Below are positions 4,689-61,346 of a stretch of 64,000 nt of DNA, one piece after another; the first letter of the stretch is position 1, and each line of letters starts with the position of its first letter. This stretch comes from a virus. The translations under genes were made by a program, and so were the position numbers. Under the pieces are notes generated by a model. That model was not told the DNA's origin. It ran no database searches and was given only the letters and a program-made list of their open reading frames with translations. The stretch covers positions 17,666 to 81,665 of the IMG/VR virus record IMGVR_UViG_3300044624_003021; one strand, written 5' to 3'.

Positions 4689-6158
4689 TTATTTTAATTT
4701 TGCCATTAAATCTTTCATTCTAAGGAATTGAGGATTTTCATAAGTTTTTGATTCAATTAAGTTAACCGCAGAACCTGTAGCCGGAACTGATTCAATTTTA
4801 CGTTCGATTGACTCGTTCATTGGTTGACTTTGTACCGTTGAAAGCTCATCCTTGATTGATTTATACAAATTCTTCGATTCTTTAAGAGTTTCAACACCAT
4901 CAAATCTTTTCAAGATGTTAATTTTTTCTTGTTTAGATGTTGAATGTTCAGTAAACAAACGTGTTGCGTATGCCAAGTTTGAATTGAATACCGCTACCTC
5001 GTTTAATTTATTTCTGAACACGTTAAGTGCCTTTCTATACTCTTCGTTTTTCTCTCTAAGAATTTGTAACTCGTTTGAATCCACACCTTCAAAAGTTAGG
5101 TTTCTATTAGGAGTAATCCCTTTTCTTAGACCACGACCTGATTTAGAACCATTACCATATGTACGTGCGGCTTCTTTTGTTTCCGTTTTCTTAGCGCCTT
5201 TTGGTTTAATTTTGAATTCGCCATCAAGAGTTTCCTTATCTTTGTATACATTAACTTTTTTAGCGTTACCTGTACCCATAGTTTTGTTAGCACTCTTTTT
5301 AACAACTTTAAACCCTTCACCTTGATTTGGATTTTTATTATATGAGAATTTTGGTTTACCCATGTTCTTACCTTTTGCTTTGAACGTCTTTTTAGACTCT
5401 TCTAAAGATTCATTGTATTCTTCCTCTTCTTCGTCTTCATCAGGCGTTTCAATTTCGTACACCATACCTTCAGTTTCCTCTTCCTCCTCTTCTTCATCGG
5501 AGTCGTCAGACATTTCGATTTCGTACATAATTTCGTCACCTTCTGAATATTCATCGCTAAATTCCATGTCTTCTTCAGAATCCATTTCTTCTTCGTCTGA
5601 TTCTTCATCATCAAACATTTTAGAAACGATGTCTTCAATTGATTCGTCAGTAGAATATGATTTCTCCATTTCCATAGATTCTTCCATTTCTTCTGACTCA
5701 TAGAATTCTTCTTCCATTTCTTCGTCAGATTCACCTACAATCATGTATTCATTTTCTTCATCTTTGATATTGATGTTTCCAGCATCGTCTTTTGTTACGA
5801 TAATGTTATCATCAGGTCCCATAAGTTGAAATACACGAAGTACTTCTTCATCTGACTTGTCGGTAAGGTCGATAGGTTCTTCCATATCTTCCATTTCGTC
5901 ATCAGTATCCATTTCCATACCCATGTCCATTTCATCAGAGTCCATTTCGTCGTCTGTTTCCATTTCAGGTCCTTCCATGTCTACATCAGTCATTTCAATC
6001 TCATCTTCTTCTTGTTCAGATAGAGATTCCTTTACTAGCTCTTTGATTTCTTCCTTCATAGTAGAAGCAAGTATTCCTTTTGCATTTTCAGCAACCGCTT
6101 CTTCCAAATTTCTCATTTGGATGATTGCCTCTTCAACAATTGATTTTTCTTTTGCCAT
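4689..6158 (-). CDS. Prohead core scaffold-like protein (gp22 position), very acidic
   Basis: A 489-aa protein with three parts: a long Glu/Asp/Ser/Met-rich region (about residues 40-250), a basic stretch (about 255-345), and a helical C-terminus (about 355-489) with a coiled-coil look (LREKNEEYRKALNVF). It sits between the prohead protease and the capsid gene, the place of scaffold gp22 in T4. Several (L/I)-x-E sites near the ends fit protease digestion during maturation. The fold and position support a scaffold; sequence similarity to T4 gp22 itself cannot be judged by eye. Confidence 0.72.
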   Translation of the reverse strand: MAKEKSIVEEAIIQMRNLEEAVAENAKGILASTMKEEIKELVKESLSEQEEDEIEMTDVDMEGPEMETDDEMDSDEMDMGMEMDTDDEMEDMEEPIDLTDKSDEEVLRVFQLMGPDDNIIVTKDDAGNINIKDEENEYMIVGESDEEMEEEFYESEEMEESMEMEKSYSTDESIEDIVSKMFDDEESDEEEMDSEEDMEFSDEYSEGDEIMYEIEMSDDSDEEEEEEETEGMVYEIETPDEDEEEEEYNESLEESKKTFKAKGKNMGKPKFSYNKNPNQGEGFKVVKKSANKTMGTGNAKKVNVYKDKETLDGEFKIKPKGAKKTETKEAARTYGNGSKSGRGLRKGITPNRNLTFEGVDSNELQILREKNEEYRKALNVFRNKLNEVAVFNSNLAYATRLFTEHSTSKQEKINILKRFDGVETLKESKNLYKSIKDELSTVQSQPMNESIERKIESVPATGSAVNLIESKTYENPQFLRMKDLMAKLK

Positions 6159-6240
6159 TTTTGGTTTTAATTTTTTATATAAATATTATCGAGTTTTAAA
6201 AAATTTATTTATATTGACAAATCAAACCAAAATAAAATAA

Positions 6241-6265
6241 AAAAGGAGGTATAAAACCTCCTTTA
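6241..6265 (-). terminator. Intrinsic terminator between the small head gene and the scaffold gene
   Basis: AAAGGAGGT and ACCTCCTTT form a 9-bp hairpin with a 5-nt loop. T-rich sequence follows on the minus strand, and an ATATTTAT motif for the next gene comes right after it. Confidence 0.75.
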
Positions 6266-6286
6266 ATTTAATCATTGATATATAGA

Positions 6287-6496
6287 TTATTCTATCACCT
6301 CATCTATTTTACTTTCAACAATTGCGGTTATTCTCCAATCTTCAGAATAATTTTCAAAAACTTTAGTCACTTTTGCTTCTACATCTGTTGGTGAATAACC
6401 TTTAACTAATTTTTCTTGTCTTAGTTTTTTAATTTTACCTGTCTCGGGGTCAGGCATGTCTGTTGTAATTTTTGCTACAAAATATTTTTCGTCCAT
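6287..6496 (-). CDS. Small conserved protein between protease and scaffold genes (DUF4494-like)
   Basis: A 69-aa acidic/basic protein with no signal peptide or membrane segment. The pattern of an N-terminal beta strand, a kinked (KLVKGYSPTDVEAKV) middle and a C-terminal strand resembles DUF4494 proteins of Bacteroidota and their phages. This is a recollection, not a search result. Its place inside the head cassette suggests a head-assembly role, which is inference. Confidence 0.6.
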   Translation of the reverse strand: MDEKYFVAKITTDMPDPETGKIKKLRQEKLVKGYSPTDVEAKVTKVFENYSEDWRITAIVESKIDEVIE

Positions 6497-6507
6497 TTTA
6501 ATTATTT

Positions 6508-7233
6508 TTAGTACTTCAAATAATCGTTCAATTTTTTCATTAAGTCAAGCGATTTGTTTGAACTTTCACCTGAAACTCTTTGTGCTTTCATTTTGTTCTC
6601 CTCCTCCAAGTTTTCTTCAAAGTTAAATCTGTCATTTGGCTCCAAGAATAGATAAGCACCAGGTGTTGATGGTGACCATACAAGGTCAAAACAAATTAAT
6701 TCAAAATCGTCCTGTACTTCGTTTTGTTCTCCAATTTTTTTAAGTGACCCCACACCACGAGATGAGATACCAAGTGTTACACCTTGTCTTAAAAGATTTG
6801 CCGCTTGGTCTCCTTTTGTAGAAACAATTCCTCTTTCATGAAAACCTGGCGAAGTGAGTAATTTTAATTTACCCATCAAAACAGGACCTTCCCACCATAT
6901 ATCGGTAATTGCATGAGAAACTCTATCTAAATCGACAAGTGATGACTCAGGGTGATTTAATTCAGACAAAGCAATACCTTTACCAATCATTTTTTTATAA
7001 TTGTCGGCTTCTCTTTTTAATACTTTTTCAGGATATATTCTACCGTTTCTATTTGGAGTATTGTATTTTTGTAGTACCGCATAAAACTCAAATGGTTTTG
7101 AGTGGTCCAACATTCCTTTAGACTCACGGATTAAATTGGCGTTACGTTGTTCCGTAGGTGAAATATAACCCGCATCGTGTTCAACAAGTAATCCCTTACC
7201 TATTTGACCGGGTTGTATAATTTGATGATTCAT
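6508..7233 (-). CDS. Prohead core protease, T4 gp21-like (S80 family)
   Basis: A 241-aa protein with the features of the gp21 family: NRNGRIYPEKVL near residue 62, the catalytic His region ELNHP (His94), and the Ser region GISSRGVGS (Ser157 or Ser158). Lengths around 210-240 aa are usual for the family. It would cleave scaffold, capsid and internal head proteins after (L/I)-x-E. Matching sites occur in the capsid protein and at the N-termini of many small proteins of this window. The preceding ATATTTATAAA motif lies about 15 nt upstream of the ATG. Confidence 0.92.
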   Translation of the reverse strand: MNHQIIQPGQIGKGLLVEHDAGYISPTEQRNANLIRESKGMLDHSKPFEFYAVLQKYNTPNRNGRIYPEKVLKREADNYKKMIGKGIALSELNHPESSLVDLDRVSHAITDIWWEGPVLMGKLKLLTSPGFHERGIVSTKGDQAANLLRQGVTLGISSRGVGSLKKIGEQNEVQDDFELICFDLVWSPSTPGAYLFLEPNDRFNFEENLEEENKMKAQRVSGESSNKSLDLMKKLNDYLKY

Positions 7234-12443: not shown

Positions 12444-13769
12444 TTATAGACCTAAACTTGAAAGGTCAACATCGTCGATATCATCGTCTTCCCATTTGGA
12501 AGACTCTTGTTCATATTCTTGTTTCTTTAAATCTGAAACAATCTCATCAACCATTCTTTGCATGGCCTTTGCTCCTGATGGGTCTCCGTTTAACACCGCT
12601 TTAGCGAATTTGAAGAAATCCTCGGCCGGTAATTTAGAAAATCTCATGAACAAATAATGTTGAATATGTTTCTTATCTTCATCAAATAACTCAATTGGGT
12701 ATGCTTCAGTGAATTTTTCCCAAAATATTGGACCTAATCTCATGTCCCATATTTCTGCGGGTAGAGTATCCTCAGACCCCATAACCATTTCGGCCTGACG
12801 TGGGTCATCTGGAAGTCCGTGAGTACCAAATATTTCATAAATACCCTTAATCAATTCGTGGATAAGAAGTGGGAATGTTGCGGCTCTTGCTTTTACAGTT
12901 GGTGGGTCGGTTTCAGGGTCAACACTTGTTTGTCCCATTTGACCTCCGCCACTTGCTGCCATACCTTCCATATCAGGCATTACCCAATAAAGGTGGTCCA
13001 TAAGTGATTGGTTAACACCGTATAGATTTACCAAATTAGGGTCAAGACGGTTTAGTTCATCTCTAACTAACTCAAACATATAGTGTCCTTTTTTAGACGC
13101 CCCTTGTATGAGTGAATTAATAAATCTTCTTTTTGATTTTTCTAAATTGAATTTCTCAAACTCATCAGCAAAATCCTCAAGTTCTTCTTTATGTTTAAAG
13201 GCCTGTTTAACTTCCTCTTTACTTGGTTTCTGAGGCGTGGACCTCATTCCTTCTGCAGATGACATCGGTCCTTGGACCAATTTTGCATCAAACTGCATTG
13301 CCCCGTCAGGAATTCCCATTTCTTTTTTAACCAAATCAACCGCCAATCTTTCGAGGTATTCTTTATTTTGAAATTCAATTCTCATTACTTGTTGTAACGA
13401 CTGCATTGCCATTCCCATAAGTTGCATGAGGGGATTACCTCCCTGTAAAGGTGCGGTAGTACCCAAATATCGTCTTACAGTGTCAACAGAATCTTTGAAT
13501 CTTTTTGACGAAACTAACTCAACAAAGTCTCGGTCACCCTTTGGTAATGCCGGATTTTCAGAATATGGAGTTTCTTTACTAGTTATTTTTCTCTCGATGT
13601 CACGACCCATCCTTTCAGGACCTTCGTAATCAATCGGAGCCTCGTTCAATTTTGATTTAAGGTTTTTCAATGTTTGTTTTTCTTTTGTCGTTAGACCCTC
13701 AGAAACCAATTTTTTTTCTAAATTGTTCCTTTCTGTAATAACTTTTTTCATATTAGGATTGAAACTCAT
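12444..13769 (-). CDS. Unknown large virion-cassette protein
   Basis: A 441-aa protein with no recognised domain. It has a helical N-terminus with (L/I)-x-E sites (VITERNN, KLNEAPID), a Met-rich segment near residues 115-130 (LMGMAMQSLQQVM), and an acidic C-terminus (EDDDIDDVD). It lies immediately upstream of the terminase, so a packaging or head role is plausible but unproven. Confidence 0.8.
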   Translation of the reverse strand: MSFNPNMKKVITERNNLEKKLVSEGLTTKEKQTLKNLKSKLNEAPIDYEGPERMGRDIERKITSKETPYSENPALPKGDRDFVELVSSKRFKDSVDTVRRYLGTTAPLQGGNPLMQLMGMAMQSLQQVMRIEFQNKEYLERLAVDLVKKEMGIPDGAMQFDAKLVQGPMSSAEGMRSTPQKPSKEEVKQAFKHKEELEDFADEFEKFNLEKSKRRFINSLIQGASKKGHYMFELVRDELNRLDPNLVNLYGVNQSLMDHLYWVMPDMEGMAASGGGQMGQTSVDPETDPPTVKARAATFPLLIHELIKGIYEIFGTHGLPDDPRQAEMVMGSEDTLPAEIWDMRLGPIFWEKFTEAYPIELFDEDKKHIQHYLFMRFSKLPAEDFFKFAKAVLNGDPSGAKAMQRMVDEIVSDLKKQEYEQESSKWEDDDIDDVDLSSLGL

Positions 13770-14781: not shown

Positions 14782-15181
14782 AGAATATTTTTTTTTCAAA
14801 TTCTAATACGATGTCTCTTTCGTATAGTTTATTTTTTACAGTTTCTTCAGGTTCACCGAATCTAAAAACCAAACGCTTGTTTCTGTCAAAATCAATCGTT
14901 TCACTTTCATTTTCCCAACACAAAGCTATCACACCATCAACCGCATCAACCATTGAAAAATAATCAGAGTTTTGAATCACAGACATTGTTATTATGTCGT
15001 TTTTCAAAACTCCAACCTTTTTTATATGTTCTAAGTCAGGTGGGAGGGGGTATCCGTTTGATGGTTTTGATTCCCATGAATCCCCCCACACACCTTCCAA
15101 ATCGTCAGAAAAAATAAACTCGTATATGTTATCTCCCTTATAATTTGGTCCTAATTCATTTACAAATATCAAATAGCTCAT
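14768..15181 (-). CDS. Unknown virion-cassette protein
   Basis: A 137-aa acidic protein with several aromatic residues in its N-terminal half (YEFIFSDDLEGVWGDSWE). It starts inside the stop codon of the upstream gene (ATGA overlap at 15178-15181), so the two are probably translationally coupled. Confidence 0.75.
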   Translation of the reverse strand: MSYLIFVNELGPNYKGDNIYEFIFSDDLEGVWGDSWESKPSNGYPLPPDLEHIKKVGVLKNDIITMSVIQNSDYFSMVDAVDGVIALCWENESETIDFDRNKRLVFRFGEPEETVKNKLYERDIVLEFEKKIFYESQ

Positions 15182-16467
15182 ATAACATCACCCTTTGGAG
15201 TAATCTTAATTTTAGACTCATTTACTTGGAAAACCAAATTTTTGTTCTTTGTTTTTCCTAACAATTTAGCATCAGGGTATTGGCTAATAAGTTTCTTTGA
15301 TTTCAAATACTGAGTTTCACTTTCAGAAACATATTGAACTCTCTTAACTAATTTTTTACGTTCAACTTCTTCTGAAACCACTTTTGGTTTTTTATTTTGT
15401 ATTTCTCTTTTTTCCGCTTCATCAATTTGGAAGTATTTGGTTAAAATTTTGTCAATTTTAGATTCAGAGAAAATACCCTCAATCATTTCTTCCATTTTGT
15501 ATGCACGGTCATCACTGATTCTTCTATCTTTAATTTTCCTATGTCTTGGTTCAGAAGGATAATCAAAATCATCAGACTCTTCATCATCAAACATTGAACT
15601 AATATCATCCATTGACATTCCCATATCTCCCTCAGCCATTTCACCTTCAGGTGCTGGTGGCATAGGTTCTTCCGAAGTGTCAGGTTCCATACCCATGTCT
15701 TCACCACCCATATCAGGTTCCATACCCATATCTTCACCACCTTCAAACTTGGACATAATTTCTTCCTTGTCTTCGGGAGCTAAACCGTTTAAATCTAAAG
15801 CCGAAAGAATCGAATTTATAACATATTTTGTGTCATCAGATGTCATTTTTGTTTCTTCATCAGCATTCAGTGTTCTTAATTTTTGACCTAATTTTCCTGT
15901 CAATTTTTGAATTACTTTAAAAGTAACAACTTCATCATCAGGAGCCTCATCCGCCATGTCATCCATAGGGGGCATTTCCGCTTCAGGCTCAGCTGATGGT
16001 ACAGGAATGTCCGCCTCGGGTGCGGGTGCAGGTGCCGGAGCAGGTGCGGGAGCTGGTGCTGGTGCGGCCTGTTCGTTGGTATTCAATTTCAAATAATATT
16101 TCTTTTCAGATTCTTCACTCTCAGTAAACAAAGAAATATTTTTGTCTTGACCTTCATTGATATTAACTTCTTTAGCAATTAAATTAAGTCTTTTAAAGGC
16201 CGCAGAATATGAAGAATAATATTTTCTATTTTTCATTGGTTCAAGATAATCAATTGACTCATTAAGTCCTTTTTTAATTACATAACCATTCTTTTCTTTA
16301 ACTATTTGGTAATTAATACCATCAGCTAAAGTGATTTTATATTCATTTGATGAATCTTCATTTATTGGTTGTGGGATATGTTCGTTATAACGAGCAATCT
16401 CCATAATACGGTTAATTTTATCCATACCATCTAATTTTTCACTACCAATTGGTCTTAAGTTTCCCAT
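15178..16467 (-). CDS. Unknown virion-cassette protein with (Ala-Pro)n stretch
   Basis: A 429-aa protein. Residues about 134-150 are alternating Ala-Pro, followed by an acidic Met/Asp/Glu region containing a short duplicated block (GGEDMGMEPD twice). The C-terminal 100 residues are basic and helical. Motifs such as PINE, LFTES and VNES look like prohead protease sites. It resembles a scaffold or internal head protein in composition; no family is recognised. Confidence 0.75.
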   Translation of the reverse strand: MGNLRPIGSEKLDGMDKINRIMEIARYNEHIPQPINEDSSNEYKITLADGINYQIVKEKNGYVIKKGLNESIDYLEPMKNRKYYSSYSAAFKRLNLIAKEVNINEGQDKNISLFTESEESEKKYYLKLNTNEQAAPAPAPAPAPAPAPAPEADIPVPSAEPEAEMPPMDDMADEAPDDEVVTFKVIQKLTGKLGQKLRTLNADEETKMTSDDTKYVINSILSALDLNGLAPEDKEEIMSKFEGGEDMGMEPDMGGEDMGMEPDTSEEPMPPAPEGEMAEGDMGMSMDDISSMFDDEESDDFDYPSEPRHRKIKDRRISDDRAYKMEEMIEGIFSESKIDKILTKYFQIDEAEKREIQNKKPKVVSEEVERKKLVKRVQYVSESETQYLKSKKLISQYPDAKLLGKTKNKNLVFQVNESKIKITPKGDVI

Positions 16468-20583: not shown

Positions 20584-20598
20584 AATCCCCTTTTTTTT
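20572..20598. terminator. Bidirectional terminator between Clp ATPase and a convergent gene
   Basis: GGGGA/TCCCC with loop GTAAAA, A-rich on one side and eight T on the other; it overlaps the Clp stop codon. Confidence 0.85.
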
Positions 20599-20974
20599 AT
20601 TTTAGTGTTTGTGAAGTTAATTTTTCGATTTTGTCAATCGCATTTGCATATGACGTAAAATAATTTACCGCATCGTCTATTTCATTTTCTAAGTCGAACT
20701 TACTTTGTGCGGGCATTTTCGAGGCCTGAACCTTACCTTTTAAATCGGAAAGTTGGGTCATTATTCTTGTATTCGGCTCGTCTAATTTTTTTAGTTTACG
20801 AGTAAGATTTCTTAAATTACTTGTGTATTTGTAGTAATCATAACCATATCCTCTCCATACACCTTTCAATCCTTGATACACGTCACTTATACCTTCTTGA
20901 GTTTCTTGTTCTTCAATAACTCTCTTAACTATTTTTTCTAAATCGGATTCTGTTAATCTTATAACTTTTCCCAT
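20597..20974 (-). CDS. Small protein with IRLTESDL N-terminus (possible capsid-targeted protein)
   Basis: A 125-aa, mostly helical protein. The first 20 residues (MGKVIRLTESDLEKIVKRVI) closely match those of the gene at 46653-47057 and contain L-T-E-S, a prohead protease-type site. The rest has no known domain. An ATATTTATA motif precedes the ATG. Confidence 0.78.
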   Translation of the reverse strand: MGKVIRLTESDLEKIVKRVIEEQETQEGISDVYQGLKGVWRGYGYDYYKYTSNLRNLTRKLKKLDEPNTRIMTQLSDLKGKVQASKMPAQSKFDLENEIDDAVNYFTSYANAIDKIEKLTSQTLK

Positions 20975-23429: not shown

Positions 23430-23864
23430 TTATACTTTCTGTTTACAAAGATTAATAATTTCTCTAATCAAAGGAATTAATTTATCAGTTGGAAAGGATG
23501 TGTATGGGTTCAAATATAACCCACTATGGGTACCCATTTTTTTAACCGGAAAACCATATTTCTGAGTAAGGTCAAAAACTAATTTACCCTTTTGAGGGTC
23601 GTCACTTTGGAAACTGAATGTTCCTACTTTTGATATTGACATTCCCCAATCATTTCCTGGCCCTGAGTGTGAACCCCAATTTAAACTATGGTCCCCGTCT
23701 TTCATTTTGATTTGTTTAGGACTTGTAGTCACTAAAGAAGAAACAATTTTAGACCAATTTTCATCCATTGATTGTTCTTCTTCATTTATCAATGGTTTAG
23801 CGTCACCCATTGTTGATTCCATCAAATTATAAAATCTTTTTTTGTATTGTTCTATATTGTTCAT
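23430..23864 (-). CDS. Unknown phage protein with protease-site-like N-terminus
   Basis: A 144-aa protein. The first 35 residues contain NLMESTMGD and LINEEEQ, both matching (L/I)-x-E sites. The rest is Gly/Ser-rich (LNWGSHSGPGNDWG) with a helical C-terminus. ATATTTATAT lies upstream. It may be an internal virion protein; no domain is recognised. Confidence 0.75.
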   Translation of the reverse strand: MNNIEQYKKRFYNLMESTMGDAKPLINEEEQSMDENWSKIVSSLVTTSPKQIKMKDGDHSLNWGSHSGPGNDWGMSISKVGTFSFQSDDPQKGKLVFDLTQKYGFPVKKMGTHSGLYLNPYTSFPTDKLIPLIREIINLCKQKV

Positions 23865-23928
23865 TGTACTATTTTTTTATATAAATATATGAAAAATAAA
23901 AAAGGTGGGTTTCCCCACCTGTGATTTG

Positions 23929-24001
23929 TTGCAACTGAAGGATTCGAACCTCCGACCTTCAGGTTATGAGCCTGACGAGCTGGCCTCTGCTCTAAGTTGC
24001 G
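23929..24001 (-). tRNA. tRNA-fMet(CAT), initiator-like
   Basis: A 73-nt cloverleaf with acceptor CGCAACT/AGTTGCA, giving the C1 x A72 mismatch that marks bacterial initiator tRNAs. The D-stem is GAGC/GCTC and the anticodon arm TCAGG-CTCATAA-CCTGA-AGGTC is nearly that of E. coli tRNA-fMet. The anticodon stem has two G-C pairs at its base rather than the usual three. CCA is not encoded. It forms the 3' end of the transcript carrying the large structured RNA. Confidence 0.88.
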
Positions 24002-25143: not shown

Positions 25144-25827
25144 TTACAGATTCATCAAATTTTTAATTCTATCGACATCTTCTTTAACGATAGAATTCAT
25201 ACCAAATTGACCAAACGCCTTTTCAAACCCTTTCATTAAAGGGTCCAATTTTCCACCAAACACATCAAGACCTTTAGAGCCCGGAGTTAAAGTTTTAAGT
25301 GATTTAGATAATTCAGGGCTAATTTCTTCTGAATCATCATCAGGTGTTGGTAAATCTTCATCGTTGGTAGTTGTCGAATCTTTAGGAGGTTGTGTGGGTG
25401 ATACCCCTGACTTATTTGAAATATGAACATGATTATTATGATTTTTATAACCAAACCATAAAACAACTTTAGGATTACCTGATTCTTTAACATTCACCAA
25501 ATACCCCAAATTTTTCAATTCATCAACAAATCGTTTAATACTATCATAAATCCCTTTGGTTTTTGCAGAACTTTCATCGCTCCAACCTTTACCGTTAATC
25601 ATGGCAATATCAACAGCATTACCCGTTTGATGTCTAGTTCCTTTTCTATGTCCGGTCACTGCCGTAGTTACTGAAACTTGAACATTCGCCTTTTTAGCTG
25701 CAGTCTGAATGTCTGATAATAAAGAAATATTAATATTATCCTTAGATGGCGTTGAATTACCTACCACTCTATCTCTAAATTCAACATTTGAGTACGTATC
25801 AACTACCTCATTTAATTTTTTATTCAT
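25144..25827 (-). CDS. M15-type (VanY/D-Ala-D-Ala carboxypeptidase-like) peptidase, probable endolysin
   Basis: A 227-aa protein. Residues about 35-142 carry the M15/hedgehog-type zinc site: HQTGNAVDIA (His and Asp ligands) and NNHVHIS (final His). A Thr/Asp/Pro-rich linker and a helical C-terminus with DVDRIKNLM follow. It likely cleaves peptide stems of peptidoglycan. There is no signal peptide, so release by a holin is expected. The gene overlaps the stop codon of a membrane coiled-coil gene, as endolysin and spanin-like genes often do. Confidence 0.75.
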   Translation of the reverse strand: MNKKLNEVVDTYSNVEFRDRVVGNSTPSKDNINISLLSDIQTAAKKANVQVSVTTAVTGHRKGTRHQTGNAVDIAMINGKGWSDESSAKTKGIYDSIKRFVDELKNLGYLVNVKESGNPKVVLWFGYKNHNNHVHISNKSGVSPTQPPKDSTTTNDEDLPTPDDDSEEISPELSKSLKTLTPGSKGLDVFGGKLDPLMKGFEKAFGQFGMNSIVKEDVDRIKNLMNL

Positions 25828-26733: not shown

Positions 26734-27858
26734 TTATCTAACTCTCACAAATTTTTTGTACTTATTATCTTTTCCCTTAATAACTCTCATTTGTAAATCA
26801 CTATTTGGTAAAATAGTTTGCCAATCAATTATCATTTCGGTACAAGGACCAAGATAATCTCCGTGATTTAGGTGTGCCTGAACCGCATTTTGATTCACAT
26901 AAATTGTATGATAAGAACCATTACCCGTTCCATGACAAATCGCAACTTTGTGACAATCATCGTCATCTTCATCATCTTCATCCTCATCTTCATCGTCCTC
27001 ATCTTCGTCCTCATCTTCATCGTCCTCATCTTCATCCTCATCTTCATCGTCCTCATCTTCATCGTCCTCATCTTCATCGTCATCGTCATCACCAGGTGGG
27101 ATAACAATATTGATTCCAATAATTTGTTCAAATGTTGACACATTACCACAAGCGTCAGTTGCGGTATAATTTCTTATAATGTTATTTGCTGAATATTCTA
27201 AATCGCTATAAATTAAATTTATTGATGAACAATTATCTGTCACAGTTACAAACGAAGTATCAATATTATCATCTTCATTAACCTCCAAATAAATTGGACC
27301 TGTAATAACCGGCGGTGTCATATCAATAGATGTTATTGTTTGTGACGAGATAGAAGTATTTCCACAAAAATCAACGGCCTCCCAAACCCTAGTATAGATT
27401 GTAGAACAACTATCAACATTTTGAATTATGTTATAATAAGTTAGTACAAAATCACTACAGTTGTCTGTGACTTGGGGGTCATCGAATATAATTGAGTCAC
27501 CACATTCCACTGTACGATTGACCAAAGGTACAAAAAGTGGCGAAGTTTCATCAACAACGTGAATTATTTGACTCTCCACTGATTGATTTCCAAAGTTATC
27601 AAAAGCTCGATATACTCTAAAAACATCATAATTGTTTTCACAAATACCGGTCGTAACTTCTTCATACCAAGCAATCTCAACACTATCATCACACTCATCA
27701 AGTGCTACAGGAAATACAACACTCAAATCAACATCACAAGAAATGGTAACTTCAGGTTCAAAGTTGATAAAATAAGGATTAATGGAATCATTTTCACACT
27801 GTGAAAATAAATTTATCGTTAAAAAAGATAAACTGAGAAGTAAAATTAGGTTTTTCAT
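26734..27858 (-). CDS. Secreted HYR/Ig-like repeat protein with Asp/Glu tract
   Basis: A 374-aa protein with a signal peptide ending LFSQ. Three repeats follow the HYR-like pattern (ending DNFGNQSVESQII, VDFCGNTSISSQTI and TDACGNVSTFEQII), each with paired Cys. Residues about 255-304 are almost only Asp and Glu. A C-terminal block with CHKVAICHGTGN and AVQAHLNHGDYLGPC is a known ending of secreted Bacteroidota proteins. It is probably exported and possibly calcium-binding; a cell-surface role is inferred. No T9SS sorting domain is obvious. Confidence 0.75.
   Translation of the reverse strand: MKNLILLLSLSFLTINLFSQCENDSINPYFINFEPEVTISCDVDLSVVFPVALDECDDSVEIAWYEEVTTGICENNYDVFRVYRAFDNFGNQSVESQIIHVVDETSPLFVPLVNRTVECGDSIIFDDPQVTDNCSDFVLTYYNIIQNVDSCSTIYTRVWEAVDFCGNTSISSQTITSIDMTPPVITGPIYLEVNEDDNIDTSFVTVTDNCSSINLIYSDLEYSANNIIRNYTATDACGNVSTFEQIIGINIVIPPGDDDDDEDEDDEDEDDEDEDEDEDDEDEDEDEDDEDEDEDDEDDDDCHKVAICHGTGNGSYHTIYVNQNAVQAHLNHGDYLGPCTEMIIDWQTILPNSDLQMRVIKGKDNKYKKFVRVR
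26955..27093 (-). repeat. Acidic microsatellite encoding Asp/Glu tract
   Basis: Irregular copies of a unit close to CATCTTCATCGTCCT on the plus strand, encoding the Asp/Glu tract. It is prone to slippage. Confidence 0.85.
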
Positions 27859-28490: not shown

Positions 28491-28557
28491 TGTTAGGTTT
28501 TATAGTAAATATCTTGAACAAAACGCGAGTTAGATATGAACTATAGTTTTTCAGTTG

Positions 28558-28631
28558 TAGTCGGAGTGGGAGTTGAACCCACGACCATCACGGTATAAGC
28601 GTGCAACTCTAACCACCTGAGCTATCCGACT
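28558..28631 (-). tRNA. tRNA-Ile(TAT)
   Basis: A 74-nt cloverleaf with acceptor AGTCGGA/TCCGACT, anticodon loop CTTATAC (anticodon UAU) and T-arm GTGGG/CCCAC. The outermost anticodon-stem pair is G-A. It would read AUA, a codon favoured by this AT-rich genome. CCA is not encoded. Confidence 0.88.
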
Positions 28632-28952: not shown

Positions 28953-29050
28953 ATTGGGTTATTTAACGTCACTACTTTATTAAACCTCGGTATCATTGAG
29001 GTATCTACACCCCTCATTTAATAAATCGTCACCCATTTGACGAGCCTCTG

Positions 29051-29123
29051 TAGTCAGGACAGGAATCGAACCTGTATTCCCTAATTAAGCGTTAGGTACT
29101 TTACCAGTTAAGTACACCTGACT
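29051..29123 (-). tRNA. tRNA-like element, possible Lys(CTT), atypical
   Basis: Acceptor AGTCAGG/CCTGACT, D-arm with AACTGGTAA, T-arm ACAGG-TTCGATT-CCTGT. The best anticodon arm is CCTAA-CGCTTAA-TTAGG, with anticodon CTT but G at position 33 instead of the near-universal U. Either an odd tRNA or a tRNA-like RNA; its acceptor equals that of the element at 28844-28952. Confidence 0.5.
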
Positions 29124-34473: not shown

Positions 34474-34485
34474 ATGTTTAACTAG

Positions 34486-34559
34486 TGCACCCTGCAGGAT
34501 TCGAACCTGCCACCCAGTGATTATGAGTCACTTGCTCTAACCTAATGAGCTAAGGGTGC
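34486..34559 (-). tRNA. tRNA-Met(CAT), elongator (or Ile2 with modified CAT)
   Basis: A 74-nt cloverleaf: acceptor GCACCCT/AGGGTGC (G1-C72, so not initiator), D-stem GCTC/GAGC, anticodon arm AGTGA-CTCATAA-TCACT, T-arm GCAGG/CCTGC. The anticodon CAT also fits lysidine-modified tRNA-Ile2; bases alone do not settle it. Confidence 0.87.
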
Positions 34560-36926: not shown

Positions 36927-37307
36927 TTAATATAAAACCTCATAAATTATACATACGTCATCATATTCAACCATAACAATGTCCCCACCTTTATAGTAAA
37001 GATAAACCTTGCATCTTTTCCTATCTTCGTCAACCGCATACCAATAAGAACCATTACCATCTTCGGTAAAATATTCAGGTTTAAGTGTCTGATAGAATTG
37101 AATATCTTCGGTGTATATTGTAATTTCCTGAGCGTCAAATTTGACAAGAATATCACCCGACAATTTTTTCGTTTCTCCCCACGTAAATTTGGAATAAGCA
37201 TCATCTCTAACACCAATTGTTAGACTGACGGCCCTTGCCCAAACTTGTGAGAATGAGATGATTGTCAAAAGTGATAGGACTAAAGTTAGGATTAGTTTTT
37301 TCATCAT
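36927..37307 (-). CDS. Unknown secreted protein
   Basis: A 126-aa protein with a signal peptide ending SFSQ and a beta-rich mature part with many Tyr and Asp residues. No family recognised. tRNA-Arg lies 11 bp upstream, so both may share one transcript. Confidence 0.75.
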   Translation of the reverse strand: MMKKLILTLVLSLLTIISFSQVWARAVSLTIGVRDDAYSKFTWGETKKLSGDILVKFDAQEITIYTEDIQFYQTLKPEYFTEDGNGSYWYAVDEDRKRCKVYLYYKGGDIVMVEYDDVCIIYEVLY

Positions 37308-37317
37308 AAAAAATTAG

Positions 37318-37391
37318 TACTCCCGAAGGGATTCGAACCCCTGGCCCACAGATTAGAAATCTGTTGCTCTATCCAACTGAGCTACGGGAGC
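37318..37391 (-). tRNA. tRNA-Arg(TCT)
   Basis: A 74-nt cloverleaf: acceptor GCTCCCG/CGGGAGT, D-stem GCTC/GAGC, anticodon loop TTTCTAA (anticodon UCU) on ACAGA/TCTGT, T-arm with GGTTCGAATCC. It would read AGA, the main Arg codon of AT-rich genomes. Confidence 0.92.
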
Positions 37392-38087: not shown

Positions 38088-39770
38088 TTAAGAAAAAACT
38101 TTGTCCTTTAAACCTTGTTCTGTATCGGTAAATTTTTGTCTAACATCAGATAACATAGGACAAATTGAATTTGCTAATTTTTCTTCAACCGATTGGGCAA
38201 AATCACCCTTTTCAATCATATCAACTAAAGTGTTTGAAAGAATATCATAGAAACCTCCAGATACTCCAACACCTAATCTAACTTGGTTAACGGCTTCTTC
38301 AGCGATTGATTTTGACAATAATTTTGTTGTAAAACTACAATCGGTAAATACTTTAGGAATATCACTTAATGCCAAGTTACCAATAGTTGTTGATACTACA
38401 CCTCCAACCCAGCTATCAGGATTTACTCCCAAAATTGATAGGACCTTATCAACCAATTTTTCCTTAAAGAACTGACTCACACCTTCAGTTGAATGTCCTA
38501 AAACTCCACCTAAAAAGTCAAATAAACCTTCATTTAATATCGGAGAATTAAAACCTTGTGAACGAAGGTACATAACTTCCTCGAATAATTCTGAACCTAC
38601 CTTTTTTTGGTTCTCAACTGAATCTAAATTTATGTCTTCAGTTATGAATTTAATTCTATTTTTAATTATTTTGGTCTCGTTCTCGTTAACTTTTTTTTTT
38701 GACCCTTTATAATTCTTAAGCCCTTCTTTAATTGATTTTTTTAAATCAATCTCGTAACTATCAATGACTTCTTTTTGTTCGATACTTTCATTTTTTCCCT
38801 TAACCGGCATACATACTTTTAATTCGTTTAATTTGTATCCTGCCGGACATCTCAAACTATAAGAATTTCTATAAGGGTTCAAACCATATAATTCCTCATA
38901 TTTACTCTTGGCAAACATTGGAATCTTATCTTGAGCTGCACATCTTCTAACATAAATCTTCATGTTATTCTTCATAGTATCTTCCATCGCCTTATTTTGA
39001 GACATGTGAGTATATAAAGATTGAATATATTGTCTACATAAAGATTTTTCAACATCTTGACTTTGACTATCAATTTCAACTTGTTTAATGTCTTCGTCCG
39101 CAAGTTTTGTATCTTGGACTCTCTGATACATGAAAAATGGTGTTGAAAAATATTCTGAGTATTTACCATCTTCAGCGGTTCTTAAATTAATTGAGTTCCA
39201 AAATAAACTTTCGGTTGCAGGCGGTCTTTCAATTTGGTAACCTCTATCTTTATATGATTGTATAATTTGGTCTTGTTGTGGTTTATCAATATTAATTTCA
39301 CCTTTTTGTTTATAAACCATCGCAACTCCGACTTTAGGGAATAAAGTTGGGTTTTTAGAATTTAAATCTATAACTTCATATTTTCCTTGATTTGTTTCAT
39401 AATCAGATGGTTTTTCTCTAACAACACCTTCATACTTAACCAAATCTTCAATGTATTTTTGTTGGTCAGGAGTAAATTGTTCCATTGGTGCTTCAACACC
39501 AACTGTTTGTTCTAATGCCTGACATTTCCATTTTCCAGTTTTAGAAGGTTTATCTGTATCTTTGAACTTAACTTCTGCGGTCATATCCGCATAGAAGATA
39601 ACGGTATTTCCTTTATCGTTTGTGCCATACCAAACTTTTTTACCTTTATAGTTACCTAATCTTCCATTTTTTAACCATTTAGGATAACATCCATTTTCGG
39701 CAGCGGTTTTTAGTTTTGTTCTGTCATCCATGACAGCGGCTTGTTCCGTTATAATATTTCTTTTTTTCAT
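38088..39770 (-). CDS. Large virion-associated protein, unknown
   Basis: A 560-aa protein. The start MKKRNIITEQAA and later FITEDINLD and PILNEGLFDF contain (L/I)-x-E sites of prohead-protease type. The N-terminal third has paired Cys and Trp; the C-terminal third, after LNEG, is hydrophobic with Gly/Ser/Val (GGVVSTTIGNLALSDIP). Probably an internal head or ejected protein; no enzyme motif seen. It is followed by the glycine-zipper gene in the same block. Confidence 0.75.
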   Translation of the reverse strand: MKKRNIITEQAAVMDDRTKLKTAAENGCYPKWLKNGRLGNYKGKKVWYGTNDKGNTVIFYADMTAEVKFKDTDKPSKTGKWKCQALEQTVGVEAPMEQFTPDQQKYIEDLVKYEGVVREKPSDYETNQGKYEVIDLNSKNPTLFPKVGVAMVYKQKGEINIDKPQQDQIIQSYKDRGYQIERPPATESLFWNSINLRTAEDGKYSEYFSTPFFMYQRVQDTKLADEDIKQVEIDSQSQDVEKSLCRQYIQSLYTHMSQNKAMEDTMKNNMKIYVRRCAAQDKIPMFAKSKYEELYGLNPYRNSYSLRCPAGYKLNELKVCMPVKGKNESIEQKEVIDSYEIDLKKSIKEGLKNYKGSKKKVNENETKIIKNRIKFITEDINLDSVENQKKVGSELFEEVMYLRSQGFNSPILNEGLFDFLGGVLGHSTEGVSQFFKEKLVDKVLSILGVNPDSWVGGVVSTTIGNLALSDIPKVFTDCSFTTKLLSKSIAEEAVNQVRLGVGVSGGFYDILSNTLVDMIEKGDFAQSVEEKLANSICPMLSDVRQKFTDTEQGLKDKVFS

Positions 39771-39783
39771 TCGGTTAAATTTT

Positions 39784-40737
39784 TTAAATATTCAATGAAT
39801 CAATGTCATCTTCATCAGGTGTCGGTAAATCCATATCAGGTTCAGGCATTGTTTGAGTCTGACAAATTTTATCTACATCAGAATCTTTAAACCCTGAGCC
39901 AAATCCTGCCCCTTCTAAAGCTGCTTGTGTTTTAGGTCCATATTTACCATCCGGTACCAAATCTAAACATGTTTGAATTTGTTTGATAGCGTCTGAATAA
40001 CATCCTTGAGTGTAAGTACCTTCACACGCCTTATATTTACCAACAGAAGGTACGGGAACTACTTCTCCGCCTCCTGTAGTGTCTCCACCGTCAGTAGTTG
40101 TACTTGCCGATAATTTAGTTTCATCAATAACTTTAGTTCTTTTCATAACTTGTTTGAGAGGTGTATATATATATTCTTGCCAATCCCCTGGTAAATCAAA
40201 ATCACCATCCAACGCATCTACTAAAGTTTCATTATAATTATCTAAATAAATTTCAGACATCCTACAAAAATCAGGAAATGTATCACAAGATGAAATAGCG
40301 TTTTTGATAGCTTCCTCGTCAGTTCCAAGACCTTCTATTGCGGTATATATTTGATTTACAATTCCTTCTAATTCACTATCACTTTGTGAAGGGGAACCAA
40401 CACCACCAGATGTACAAGTTTTAATAATTTTTATTGTATTATCGGCAGAACCAGTGTTATTTGAGAGTGCTAGAACTATTCCAATGGTGGCCCCTACTGC
40501 GGCTCCAATCGCAGTACCTAATCCAGGTACGAATGAACCTGCGGTAGCTCCCGCTCCCATTGCTGTCGCTACAGCCCCTAAACCAACGGCGGTACCGGCT
40601 CCTGCAAGTCCCGCCCCTGTTAAATATCCTGTATCTACTTCATTTATATTTTCAGTTAATGTCTTTTTACTATCGTATTTCATCATAAGAAGGGCTCTTT
40701 TTAATTCCTCTTCTCCTATTTTTCTCTTATTATCCAT
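39784..40737 (-). CDS. Virion-type protein with glycine-zipper membrane segment, annexin-like repeat and PG-binding domain
   Basis: A 317-aa protein. N-terminal residues include TLTEN (protease-type site). Residues about 40-92 are Gly/Ala-rich and hydrophobic, as in membrane-inserting glycine zippers. Residues about 130-190 look like one annexin repeat (AIEGLGTDEEAIKNAISS, then YLDNYNETLVDALDGDF). Residues about 240-295 match PG_binding_1 (IKQIQTCLDLVPDGKYGPKTQAAL). This combination suggests a protein ejected to cross the cell envelope. The annexin match is by eye. Confidence 0.68.
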   Translation of the reverse strand: MDNKRKIGEEELKRALLMMKYDSKKTLTENINEVDTGYLTGAGLAGAGTAVGLGAVATAMGAGATAGSFVPGLGTAIGAAVGATIGIVLALSNNTGSADNTIKIIKTCTSGGVGSPSQSDSELEGIVNQIYTAIEGLGTDEEAIKNAISSCDTFPDFCRMSEIYLDNYNETLVDALDGDFDLPGDWQEYIYTPLKQVMKRTKVIDETKLSASTTTDGGDTTGGGEVVPVPSVGKYKACEGTYTQGCYSDAIKQIQTCLDLVPDGKYGPKTQAALEGAGFGSGFKDSDVDKICQTQTMPEPDMDLPTPDEDDIDSLNI

Positions 40738-40777: not shown

Positions 40778-41026
40778 TCATAATAAAGTATTAGCTTTAC
40801 CTCTTGTTAATTTAACAATTTCACTCCACTTCGTAAGACCTATTTGATTAGCGGGTCCTGTTCTTGCAACACCACTTTCCCATTTTGTGACTGTGGGATA
40901 TGCGGGTTTTGCTCCTCCACCTCCAGAGGCAGGAGCTGCTGCGTCCTGTTCTCCCATTTCTTCTTTATCTGATGACGGAGTAAACGATTTCATCAGAGAA
41001 ATGATTGAATCAATGTCGTTTTTCAT
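40778..41026 (-). CDS. Small unknown virion-type protein
   Basis: An 82-aa protein with a short helical start, an Ala/Gly/Pro linker and a polar C-terminus. AATATTTATTT lies before the ATG; the gene precedes the two larger virion-type genes in one direction. Confidence 0.65.
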   Translation of the reverse strand: MKNDIDSIISLMKSFTPSSDKEEMGEQDAAAPASGGGGAKPAYPTVTKWESGVARTGPANQIGLTKWSEIVKLTRGKANTLL

Positions 41027-43960: not shown

Positions 43961-44590
43961 ATGAAATTAACTGTAGTAATAAACGAAAGTCAAAAAAAAG
44001 TTTTAATCACTGAATCAATCGTTGATGAATTGATTGGTGTTTTAAAAACTAACTACGAAACTGTTAAAAATATTATTGAGGAAACCTCTAAGGAATTTGG
44101 GGGTCATTTTAATATTTTGATATCGTGGGGGGCGACTATTGGTGGTTTAATTGAGCCATTATCAAGATTTATACGTGGTAACTATTCAGGGCTATCTGAC
44201 ACAGAGTTGAGTATAGTATTACTTGGGGTTATTGCAATATACTTCCAAGACAATAAATCAAAAGTTAAAGAAGTTCTTAATGTTATTAAAGAAAAAGGTT
44301 TAGAAGAACCATTCAAAATGGCATTATATAAAAGTCAGGAATTTAAAACCGCTTTTATGGATTTCATGGGAAGTTTAAATTTACATTTATATAAAGTGAC
44401 AAACTTGATGTCATATGCGTTTTTAGCCCCGATTTTATTCTATTTGGCCCAATACGCCACAAGTGGTGAAATTGATAGTTCTACTGTTAAGGAAATTTCA
44501 GATAGATTGTTAACTTCAGGACTACTAACTGTATCATCAATAGGTCTTAGAAATTCAATTAGTAAAATAATTAAGAGATTTTCTTCTTAG
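43961..44590 (+). CDS. Unknown protein with INES N-terminus
   Basis: 209 aa from the ATG at 43961, chosen because GTATTTATTATTGT precedes it; an upstream in-frame start is unlikely. The N-terminus MKLTVVINESQKKVLITES holds two (L/I)-x-E-S sites. The middle and C-terminus have amphipathic or membrane helices (YAFLAPILFYLAQYA). It may be a head-internal or ejected protein. Confidence 0.7.
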   Translation: MKLTVVINESQKKVLITESIVDELIGVLKTNYETVKNIIEETSKEFGGHFNILISWGATIGGLIEPLSRFIRGNYSGLSDTELSIVLLGVIAIYFQDNKSKVKEVLNVIKEKGLEEPFKMALYKSQEFKTAFMDFMGSLNLHLYKVTNLMSYAFLAPILFYLAQYATSGEIDSSTVKEISDRLLTSGLLTVSSIGLRNSISKIIKRFSS

Positions 44591-46652: not shown

Positions 46653-47057
46653 TTACCAAGTACGACACGCCCAATATCTTGGTTTCCATCTTGGTCCAGG
46701 ATTGTCACAATTGTGTCTCGCTCTAAAAGATTTTCTTCTTTCAGGATTATTTTTCTTGATTGTCATTCTTTTTCCTTTTGCGGACTTACCACCAAAACCA
46801 AAGTTTACCTTAACAACTTTACCATTTTCATTCTTAACATAAACTTTAAACTTTTTAATATCACCTTGCATGATTTTACCAAGCTGTACTTTTCTACCCT
46901 TATACTCCGCTTCATTTAAAACGTCAGTTGATTCGAAATCAGTTTCAACAACACTTCCATATTCATCTTCATATATGATACCTTCATTCATCTGAGCGGT
47001 AACCATCTCAATAATTCTTTTCAAATCTGATTCTGTCAATCTTATAATTTTACTCAT
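46653..47057 (-). CDS. Small protein with IRLTESDL N-terminus and basic C-terminus
   Basis: A 134-aa protein starting MSKIIRLTESDLKRIIEMV, almost the same as the gene at 20597-20974. DVLNEAE is a second protease-type site. The C-terminal half is strongly basic (KRMTIKKNNPERRKSFRARH) and ends with CDNPGPRWKPRYWACRTW, a pattern known from phage proteins of unknown role. A DNA-binding internal head protein is plausible. Confidence 0.75.
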   Translation of the reverse strand: MSKIIRLTESDLKRIIEMVTAQMNEGIIYEDEYGSVVETDFESTDVLNEAEYKGRKVQLGKIMQGDIKKFKVYVKNENGKVVKVNFGFGGKSAKGKRMTIKKNNPERRKSFRARHNCDNPGPRWKPRYWACRTW

Positions 47058-47657: not shown

Positions 47658-48188
47658 ATGAAAAGAATTACGATAAACGAGGGTGAACTTAGAAAAATAA
47701 TTAGACAACACCTGAAAGAGGAAATGGGAATGGATTCTAAAGAAACTCAAGAATCTAAACCAAAATGTATGACCACCAATTCTATCCCATTGACTGAACT
47801 TGTTGGTGAGGCCGGTGATTATGATTTATATTCTCCAGGTGTGACAAAAAGAAAAAGAGGAGTAAACTCAATGGTGGACACTTTAGGTATTTTAAATAAC
47901 CTAAGATTATTTAAAGACGTTAATGACGGTGGTGCCCATCTTTCTTATGAAATGATGAATCATTTGAATAAATTTAAAAACAAAAACTACTACGATGAAA
48001 CATCAGGAGAATGTCATAAAGCCATGGATAAAGTAATCGAACTATATAAAGAAAATGAACACGGGACAGAACTAGTTAAAGACATTGAAAGGGTACTCGC
48101 TCTTCAAACTAAAGATGACGAGTATACCCCATCTCCAAGAGCGAAAGAATATTTAAAAAGATGTTTAATGTTAGTTAAAGAAAAATAA
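47658..48188 (+). CDS. Unknown protein with INEGEL N-terminus
   Basis: A 176-aa helical protein starting MKRITINEGELRKIIRQHL, the same kind of N-terminal module as the other (L/I)-x-E proteins of the window. No other motif. A structured segment and terminator follow. Confidence 0.75.
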   Translation: MKRITINEGELRKIIRQHLKEEMGMDSKETQESKPKCMTTNSIPLTELVGEAGDYDLYSPGVTKRKRGVNSMVDTLGILNNLRLFKDVNDGGAHLSYEMMNHLNKFKNKNYYDETSGECHKAMDKVIELYKENEHGTELVKDIERVLALQTKDDEYTPSPRAKEYLKRCLMLVKEK

Positions 48189-51177: not shown

Positions 51178-52218
51178 TTATTTTTCGAGTTCTAAAGTAT
51201 ATAATCTCATGAAATTTCTTTGCAGTTTGTCACCGGCCTTATTGATTCTTGGTTGGAAATTATTAATCAAATCTAACAAACCTTCAGTTTTTTCTATATA
51301 CCGTGCCGGTTTTTCACCGTAAACTCTCATCCATTTGTAATAATCGGTCATAAACCATTTATATAAATTGTTCAAAATAGACAGTAGTTTATCGGGGTTC
51401 ACTTCTTGAATTTTATTTGTCAACTTATCAAAAAACGTATCGGCATCAAAGTTTTTCATGACTGATGCGTTGGACCAAAGTTTAGTTTTTTTGAATTCTT
51501 CAAAGGGTAATATTGATGTTTGGCTAACCGCCTCTTGTGATTTTGCATTTACTTCATATGGTTCTGAATAGTATATCATATCCAAAAATTCTTGCCAAAC
51601 TTTGTAAATTTCTTTGTTTACGTTATAGTTTTTACCTCCAACCCAACTCAAGGTGGTATTAAATTGTTTTGCTCCTGATTCAGCCCTTCGATAACTCTCT
51701 AACATGTGATTACATTCGTGAATTATCGTATCTCTAAGGTCATATAGTGCTTTGTCTTTCAATTCTTCATTGAACTCAATCCCTATTTTAAAACTTATAA
51801 ATAATTTTACATACAAAGTTTGAGTAATCTCCTCCAAAATATACTTAGGTAACTCAAGTGTGGGTGATTTTAAATATGACCCACCAAATGATTTTTTGTC
51901 TATTGATTGAAATCCTCCTCCTGACGTGAATCTGTTTTCTTTTGTATTTTTTGGAATTTTCAAACAAGAAAAATCAATTTCAATTTTTTCCACGGGTAAC
52001 TCAATATAATCATCCATACTTGATTGAAAAATTTGTGAAATATCTTTCAAGTCTATAATGATTTTTTGTTTGGATGGAATTCTTGATTCCATAAATTCAA
52101 GGACCTTAGGTTCGAGTTTTTGGTATATCAAATTACTGTAGGACAAGGAAACCCGGGAGACTCCCAAATCTTCTTTAATAAGTGTTTTCAATTGGTTCTC
52201 AGATAACAAAACTTTCAT
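51178..52218 (-). CDS. Putative zinc metalloprotease (HExxH) with LSE N-terminus
   Basis: A 346-aa protein with DTIIHECNHMLESYRR (His167, Glu168, His171); a third ligand may be Glu180 or the later NAKSQEAVSQ Glu. The N-terminus MKVLLSENQLKTLIKEDLG belongs to the (L/I)-x-E group. AATATTTATA lies a few nt before the ATG. Probably packaged in the head; substrate unknown. Confidence 0.72.
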   Translation of the reverse strand: MKVLLSENQLKTLIKEDLGVSRVSLSYSNLIYQKLEPKVLEFMESRIPSKQKIIIDLKDISQIFQSSMDDYIELPVEKIEIDFSCLKIPKNTKENRFTSGGGFQSIDKKSFGGSYLKSPTLELPKYILEEITQTLYVKLFISFKIGIEFNEELKDKALYDLRDTIIHECNHMLESYRRAESGAKQFNTTLSWVGGKNYNVNKEIYKVWQEFLDMIYYSEPYEVNAKSQEAVSQTSILPFEEFKKTKLWSNASVMKNFDADTFFDKLTNKIQEVNPDKLLSILNNLYKWFMTDYYKWMRVYGEKPARYIEKTEGLLDLINNFQPRINKAGDKLQRNFMRLYTLELEK

Positions 52219-60560: not shown

Positions 60561-61346
60561 TTAGAATGTAATTTCTAAATTAGCAGTAATAGGTCTGTTA
60601 GCCAAACTTGGATTTGTAACAATAACAGTCTTATACATTGGATTAACCATAATTGTCAAACGAGAATTGGCGTCAGTTCCCTTAGAGAATGATAAAGTTC
60701 TCTTTAATACAACACCCACATTAGTAAATCCGTTTTCTTTTTGGAAGTTTACTTGTGATTCACCGGTTACGTACCCAACAAATATGTCAGCATTGTAATC
60801 CAAATGGTAAGTAGCTTCAAAATAAATTGAACCTCTCTTATATGATTCATTTTGATAAAACACATAACTTGTTAAGAAATCAATTCTTGATTTTGCATCA
60901 CCTTTATATTTCAATACCGCTTCCAAAAAGTGATTGGTAGTAGCCTTATTATAATGGAAATAATTTGTGTCAATCTGAGTTGGAGTGTTTTGACTAAAAT
61001 AAATGTCCTGAACTCCAATTGATGTGTTAAAGACATTAAACAAAGCTGAATTTTTCACAGTGTTTGCATATCCTTCTCTAAATTGGTTGTAAACAGCGTT
61101 AACCTCAGAGTTCAGTGTGAACCAACTTACTGGTTGATAATCCGCAGTCATTTTTATTACAGGTTGTTTTCCTACGTCAACACCTCTCCACAAATTAGAG
61201 GTTGAAAGTCCAAAGTCACTTGTAAACGGGCTCTCTTTTTTTGCCGGTCTAAAGAATAGTCCTTTAGTTTTTACAGTATCTGCTTGGGAGAATGATGTTA
61301 ATGTTGTTAAAACCCCAAGTAGAAAAAGAAATAATAATTTTTTCAT
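60561..61346 (-). CDS. Putative outer-membrane beta-barrel protein
   Basis: 261 aa: signal peptide ending SFSQ; the mature part has alternating beta strands with repeated aromatic ends (GLSTSNLWRGVDVGKQPVIKM, GSIYFEATYHLDYNAD) and ends in Phe (ANLEITF), as outer-membrane barrels do. The LWRG element is like TorF-type porins. It may alter the host surface, for instance to block superinfection; this is inference. Confidence 0.75.
   Translation of the reverse strand: MKKLLFLFLLGVLTTLTSFSQADTVKTKGLFFRPAKKESPFTSDFGLSTSNLWRGVDVGKQPVIKMTADYQPVSWFTLNSEVNAVYNQFREGYANTVKNSALFNVFNTSIGVQDIYFSQNTPTQIDTNYFHYNKATTNHFLEAVLKYKGDAKSRIDFLTSYVFYQNESYKRGSIYFEATYHLDYNADIFVGYVTGESQVNFQKENGFTNVGVVLKRTLSFSKGTDANSRLTIMVNPMYKTVIVTNPSLANRPITANLEITF

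Follow-up and report, generated by a model that had tools for sequence, protein, structure and literature searches.

Candidate capsid-targeting leaders on unrelated proteins of a T4-like phage genome fragment

The protein encoded at 46653-47057 (minus strand) begins with a short peptide that is found also at the start of unrelated proteins and that holds a Glu-terminated site of the T4 prohead protease type, which raises the question whether such leaders address proteins to the phage head and are removed there. The window analysed is a stretch of 64,000 nucleotides (bases 17,666-81,665 of an 81,665-base IMG/VR virus record) and belongs to a genome fragment of a T4-like phage. In T4, the cleavage rule is L/I-x-E and CTS leaders of 10-19 residues direct proteins to the core before being cut (PMC9026906); Alt is cut at ITE-6 and LTE-619, and the portal is not processed (PMC5694885). 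We put at roughly 0.83 the probability that the tags represent an enlarged and diversified version of the T4 capsid-targeting propeptides, which would be removed by a gp21-type protease. The window contains a T4-type head cluster with gp23 (PF07068), a scaffold-like protein, a gp21-type protease (PF03420), the portal and the terminase, with the following features (a hyphen after Glu marks a candidate cut):

6508-7233, minus strand: gp21-type prohead protease (PF03420, E 1e-24; phrog_207, E 1e-43)
4481-4660, minus strand: propeptide of the gp23-like capsid protein (PF07068), residues 1-60, ending INE60-A, the site being aligned with relatives
4689-6158, minus strand: acidic scaffold-like protein, encoded between protease and capsid, assigned by position and by homologues in the compared Bacteroidota-type T4-like genomes

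When gp23 was compared with sequenced phages, Flavobacterium phage immuto was among the best matches, with 41% identity. The INE-A that an earlier note on this DNA had reported at capsid residue 60 is present and aligns with LTE65-A of T4, a [LI][NT]E-[AS] motif occupying this position in 7/7 fetched IMG/VR relatives. The scaffold-like protein has a C-terminal LIE-SKTYENPQFLRMKDLMAKLK, and [LI]xE was absent from the first 100 residues of the portal in all ten genomes compared. The window also carries five tRNA genes (Met, Ile, Lys, Met and Arg), all on the minus strand, at 23928-24001, 28557-28631, 29050-29123, 34485-34559 and 37317-37391.

The motif strings quoted in the earlier note were all found in the genes named, namely IRLTE9-S (20597 and 46653), INE8-G (47658), INE9-S (43961), LSE7-N (51178), LSE4-K (44571), ITE9-Q (38088), LTE29-N (39784) and LME16-S (23430). 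However, [LI]xE is short: it occurs within residues 2-20 of 26 of the 73 record proteins, where internal windows of these proteins would predict 14.6 (P ~0.001), so that about half of the N-terminal sites are attributable to chance and the motif alone is no proof of a site. Across eight related T4-like genomes, [LI]xE was about 2 times, and [LI][TSNK]E about 3.5 times, more common in residues 2-10 than internally, [LI]xD and [VF]xE showing no N-terminal enrichment in these eight genomes; a crAss-like control genome showed no N-terminal enrichment of the motif. The expectation of 14.6 in 73 proteins, together with the loss of the motif in homologues of 44571, would suit a reading in which single N-terminal [LI]xE sites are accidents of a proteome rich in E and in L/I and part of the earlier list is noise. 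This reading is highly improbable in our judgement, the tag families and conserved junctions described below being far in excess of chance. As a whole explanation, chance was ruled out for the tag by the reversed pattern and the N-terminal sharing (see below), and was retained for single sites.

Two metalloproteases had been proposed to carry a tag. For 51178 this stands, the orthologue in G026, MKVVITEEQYKRLLNE-DLG, retaining both sites and ending LLNE-DLG, while 44571 was rejected as a tagged protein because LSE4 is not conserved, LSE4-K being replaced in homologues (SNE, FTE). In 23430 the proposed LME16-S exists as a string, but INE28-E is the better candidate site.

We compared all N-termini within each genome, pairs with homology elsewhere being omitted. 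In immuto and in seven related IMG/VR genomes, unrelated proteins resembled each other at the N-terminus far more than in internal windows. The resemblance was modest in T4, where recovery of the CTS of IPII and IPIII served as positive control; in the crAss-like control it was almost nil and no such tags were seen. In place of the one common tag previously envisaged, the N-terminal clusters, grouped by eye, gave several leader types on unrelated genes: I (IRLTESDL..), II (MKIIITESQ.., MKYLITESQ..), III (MNLQEQIRKILKEE..), IV (..EEK..IL..H..) and V (..EEI..IK.L..Y..VISEQ), most of them terminating in [IL]xE. The tagged products of immuto form MENFDLKKFLVENK, MKKSQLR and MKKQILSEQF groups. Besides that of 46653, the leaders in the window are:

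20909-20974, minus strand: type I tag of gene 20597-20974, ending VIEE22-Q (PWM score 49.6); homologues in G016 and G031 have different leaders
47658-47720, plus strand: type I-like tag of gene 47658-48188, ending HLKE21-E, clustering N-terminally with 20597 and 46653; KIME21-Q in the G016 orthologue
43961-44014, plus strand: type II-like leader of gene 43961-44590, with INE9-S and ITE18-S; related leaders in the G016, G003 and G026 orthologues
52171-52218, minus strand: type II-like leader of gene 51178-52218 (HExxH protein), with LSE7-N and IKE16-D; orthologue in G026
40651-40737, minus strand: type V-like leader of gene 39784-40737, ending TLTE29-N; KTLTE-N also in the G016 homologue
40949-41026, minus strand: type V-like leader of gene 40778-41026, ending MGE26-Q, an addition to the earlier list; ELGE-Q in the G016 and G003 homologues
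23781-23864, minus strand: possible leader of gene 23430-23864, ending LINE28-E, by likeness to type V
39744-39770, minus strand: possible short leader of gene 38088-39770, MKKRNIITE9-Q, a weak case by motif only, the N-terminus of the G016 homologue being different
13641-13769, minus strand: leader of head-cluster gene 12444-13769, ending LNE43-APIDYEGPERM, the junction being conserved in relatives
16357-16467, minus strand: leader of gene 15178-16467, ending INE37-D; INE37 conserved in G016, G003 and G026

In the 12444 family, [LI]xE-A is kept in five genomes (the window, G004, G003, G026 and G016) behind leaders of 19-43 residues, and the homologues in G036 and G031 have INE-M and LNE-G, respectively. 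Relatives of 51178 were sought in IMG/VR and none was confirmed; 23430 had no homologue among the compared genomes. A survey of homology boundaries, taking in all cross-genome homology pairs, gave [LI]xE at 8% of them versus 2.4%, an excess that is modest but specific for Glu. N-termini of another kind, Bacteroidota-style signal peptides (MKK..LLLLS..FSQ), were seen on the proteins of 26734-27858, 36927-37307, 60561-61346 and 1989-2564, the last being a DNA/RNA non-specific endonuclease.

The type I tag was followed across IMG/VR with a DNA pattern for IRLTESDLxxI(V/I)K, which matched at least 120 stretches; the reversed pattern gave 0 matches. The tag, IRLTESDLxxIVKRVIxE, lies at residues 4-9 of unrelated ORFs, as found for 131/132 matches. 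BLAST of the tag against isolate phages returned no match, so that type I is undetected in cultured phages. In a set of 99 non-redundant downstream sequences, the information content drops to background immediately past [ILVM]xE. This motif is in register in 93/99 (69/74 short forms, KRVIxE, and 24/25 long forms, KESVNRILxE), compared to only 6-10/99 in downstream windows of equal size, and P2 is free, with many residues occurring there. Within the tag, its end, VIxE, would be at least as likely a cut as LTE-S.

A second junction lies further downstream in the 46653 protein, which divides as follows:

46911-47057, minus strand: leader, residues 1-49, made of the type I tag MSKIIRLTESDLKRIIEMVTAQMNE and a linker; the tag matches are N-terminal on unrelated ORFs, and the junction is found in 77/77 homologues
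46653-46910, minus strand: predicted mature cargo, the 85-residue basic module phrog_7595, residues 50-134 plus stop (34 aligned homologues)

The leader has three candidate cuts, LTE9-S, MNE25-G and LNE49-A. In 77/77 homologues, [LIMV]xE followed by A or S directly precedes the module, with Glu at P1 in all 77, L49 I13 M8 V7 at P3, A75 S2 at P1' and eleven residue types at P2, behind leaders of 37-493 residues that are unrelated in sequence. With P3, P1 and P1' fixed and P2 free, the junction has the look of a protease site. The main cut in 46653 is probably VLNE49-A50 and not LTE9-S; as sole cut, LTE9-S, which had been put forward before, is not favoured over LNE49-A and the tag end.

The leaders proved interchangeable, homologous cargo bearing different tags in different phages, some of them T4-CTS-like. 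The 20597 domain, which in the window follows a type I tag, stands behind unrelated leaders in its G016 and G031 homologues, three different leaders in all, and the 46653 module was found behind type I, II, III and T4-like leaders. The window's own type I tag is unlike the T4 CTS (MKTYQEFIAE); T4-CTS-like leaders stand on the same module at locus L244 (MKTFQEYLKE) and in isolate C48C1 (MKKFKQYIDE).

Could the tags be directed to the prohead core and stay on, the conserved Glu being part of the binding helix? Types I and II both conserve the LTE near the tag start, and in T4 IPIII targeting and processing use different leader residues (PMC9026906), as such a reading would have it. Yet the tag end combines fixed P1 and P3 with a free P2, and the junction beside the 46653 module is conserved regardless of the leader. 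Both fit better with cutting, and an uncut tag seems to us very unlikely.

Tags and protease also occur together. PF03420 was found in 27/42 tagged records, including all ten above 240 kb, and in 25/25 of those that bear gp23, a count made on tagged records only and with completeness unstated. The 15 tagged records without the protease are all without gp23 too, a joint absence expected of fragments. Among isolates, the module begins at the initiator Met in 8/9 phages lacking PF03420 (Kolga, Aegir, HTVC026P, HTVC111P, HTVC202P, HTVC106P, CRP-902 and CRP-3), with starts such as MAKYQGR.., MATYKGK.., MAIDKSK.. and MAVDKSK.., from which Met removal would yield the identical N-terminal Ala. In the ninth, Roseobacter phage CRP-6 (gp55, L324:733-1422), a short leader is present and the module is fused to a Peptidase_S78_2 head maturation protease; the fusion is a second link of phrog_7595 to capsid maturation. 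All five protease-positive isolates have leaders, C48C1, HTVC008M, Melnitz-3 and pT24 with PF03420 and immuto with an annotated prohead protease, giving 5/5 PF03420-positive versus 1/9 negative isolates (Fisher P 0.003, with few isolates and lineages that are not fully independent).

These data bear on a further reading, that tagged proteins dock not on the core but on another phage partner (polymerase, tail, membrane or compartment) and that [LI]xE is a mere helix end. Tagged genes are often located outside the head cluster, and the tag is predicted as a helix at residues 9-22, the only interpretable part of a low-confidence AlphaFold model (mean pLDDT 53) built for the 46653 protein from 34 sequences. 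Bacterial chromosomes also have tagged orphans: Prevotella/Segatella assemblies without PF03420 carry single type I tagged genes. One such orphan is L302 1104-1367. In two other assemblies without PF03420, the tagged ORF adjoins or stands beside an IS1595 (ISXO2-like) transposase, with ORF 5795-6823 next to transposase 4808-5794 in L307 and ORF 1342-1776 next to 1773-2747 in L290. Such orphans may have come from phages or may reflect another use of the tag; together with the modest excess at homology boundaries, they count against capsid targeting. Against docking elsewhere, the module starts keep P1 Glu and an aliphatic P3 with P2 free, the leader is missing in 8/9 isolates without the T4-type protease, and a T4-CTS-like leader sits on the same 46653 module in a Kyanoviridae phage. 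We consider docking on a non-core partner unlikely.

What is established here is that the tags exist, that they are interchangeable, that the junctions are conserved and that there is a link to the protease. The core idea of the earlier note, N-terminal head-targeting tags with gp21-type sites, is upheld by the comparative evidence, with details that differ. Core binding, cutting and presence in virions are inferred, targeting and cutting by T4 precedent. For capsid-targeting propeptides, a tagged protein would become enclosed during prohead assembly through binding of its N-terminal helix to the core (scaffold). Cleavage by the gp21-type protease after the Glu of [LI]xE, at sites both inside the leader and at its end, would next liberate the mature cargo within the head. 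In 46653, the cut at VLNE49-A50 would release the 85-residue basic module. Ejection of cargo into the host with the DNA would follow, again by T4 precedent, and is the least certain step. The scaffold C-terminus RMKDLMAKLK (4689-6158) and the protease C-terminus LDLMKKLNDYL (6508-7233) are like type V leaders. The C-terminus VDRIKNLMNL of window gene 25144-25827 is also like those of scaffold and protease, and the immuto scaffold (125626-126867) ends in RWQKLAGIIK, similar to the immuto tag RRMQKLAGIITES. The leaders may mimic a core-binding helix.

We found also that longer 46653 homologues carry two further modules, the second (-DLRRWFKEKW) having P1 Glu in 21/21 and the third (-KCWxGYxQxGMK) in 8/10. 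Such Glu-bounded extra modules suggest precursors cut into pieces, and with several modules behind one leader in some relatives, one precursor could give several head proteins. The tagged proteins are mostly without known domain (127 proteins scanned). A Fe/Mn superoxide dismutase in G026 (L172:9309-10814), with a copy in G003 (L159), has the tag-like leader MKSLNLVSESLVSRILGEE..FINE-M directly before the enzyme domain and is possibly a head-borne antioxidant. In its widest form, the proposal would be that T4-like phages of Bacteroidota and of marine bacteria have a general zip-code system, with interchangeable leader families and dozens of head-addressed proteins per genome, some cargos being polyproteins of small modules bounded by prohead-protease sites from which one gene gives several head proteins; to this we would give even odds.

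Large phages have many proteins of unknown function. Should the leaders prove to be head addresses, proteins entering the cell together with the DNA, among which anti-defence and takeover factors are expected, could be recognised in uncultured genomes by a short sequence profile, and head-loading tags, along with protease sites, would become available for phages outside the T4 group. A literature search, with most subscription papers outside its reach, found neither the tag string nor proteomics of this phage or of immuto, and turned up no capsid-targeting leaders beyond those of T4, P1 and the phiKZ group.

Among known systems, phage P1 is like the present one in that the N-terminus of DarB directs the protein to the head, 30 residues being sufficient (PMC9024508), whereas for the P1 Dar proteins no common signal was found and there is no gp21/gp22-type core. 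Phages phiKZ and SPN3US, with a diverged gp21-like protease, share leaders that have several Glu-terminated sites and stand on ejected or inner-head proteins, but follow an S/A-x-E or A-x-E rule with leaders often longer than 100 residues (PMC9026906, PMC5694885), in contrast to the [LI]xE and short helical tags found here. The T4 proteins IPI-III and Alt share with the window a short N-terminal leader common to unrelated proteins, [LI]xE sites, the same protease family (gp21) and the same head gene set. Unlike in T4, leaders here fall into several families and are often longer, candidate cargos number dozens per genome, there are multiple candidate cut sites and modular precursors, and the phage group is different. 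The system would work like the internal-protein system of T4, which is defined by virion location and processing and whose genetic parts are present.
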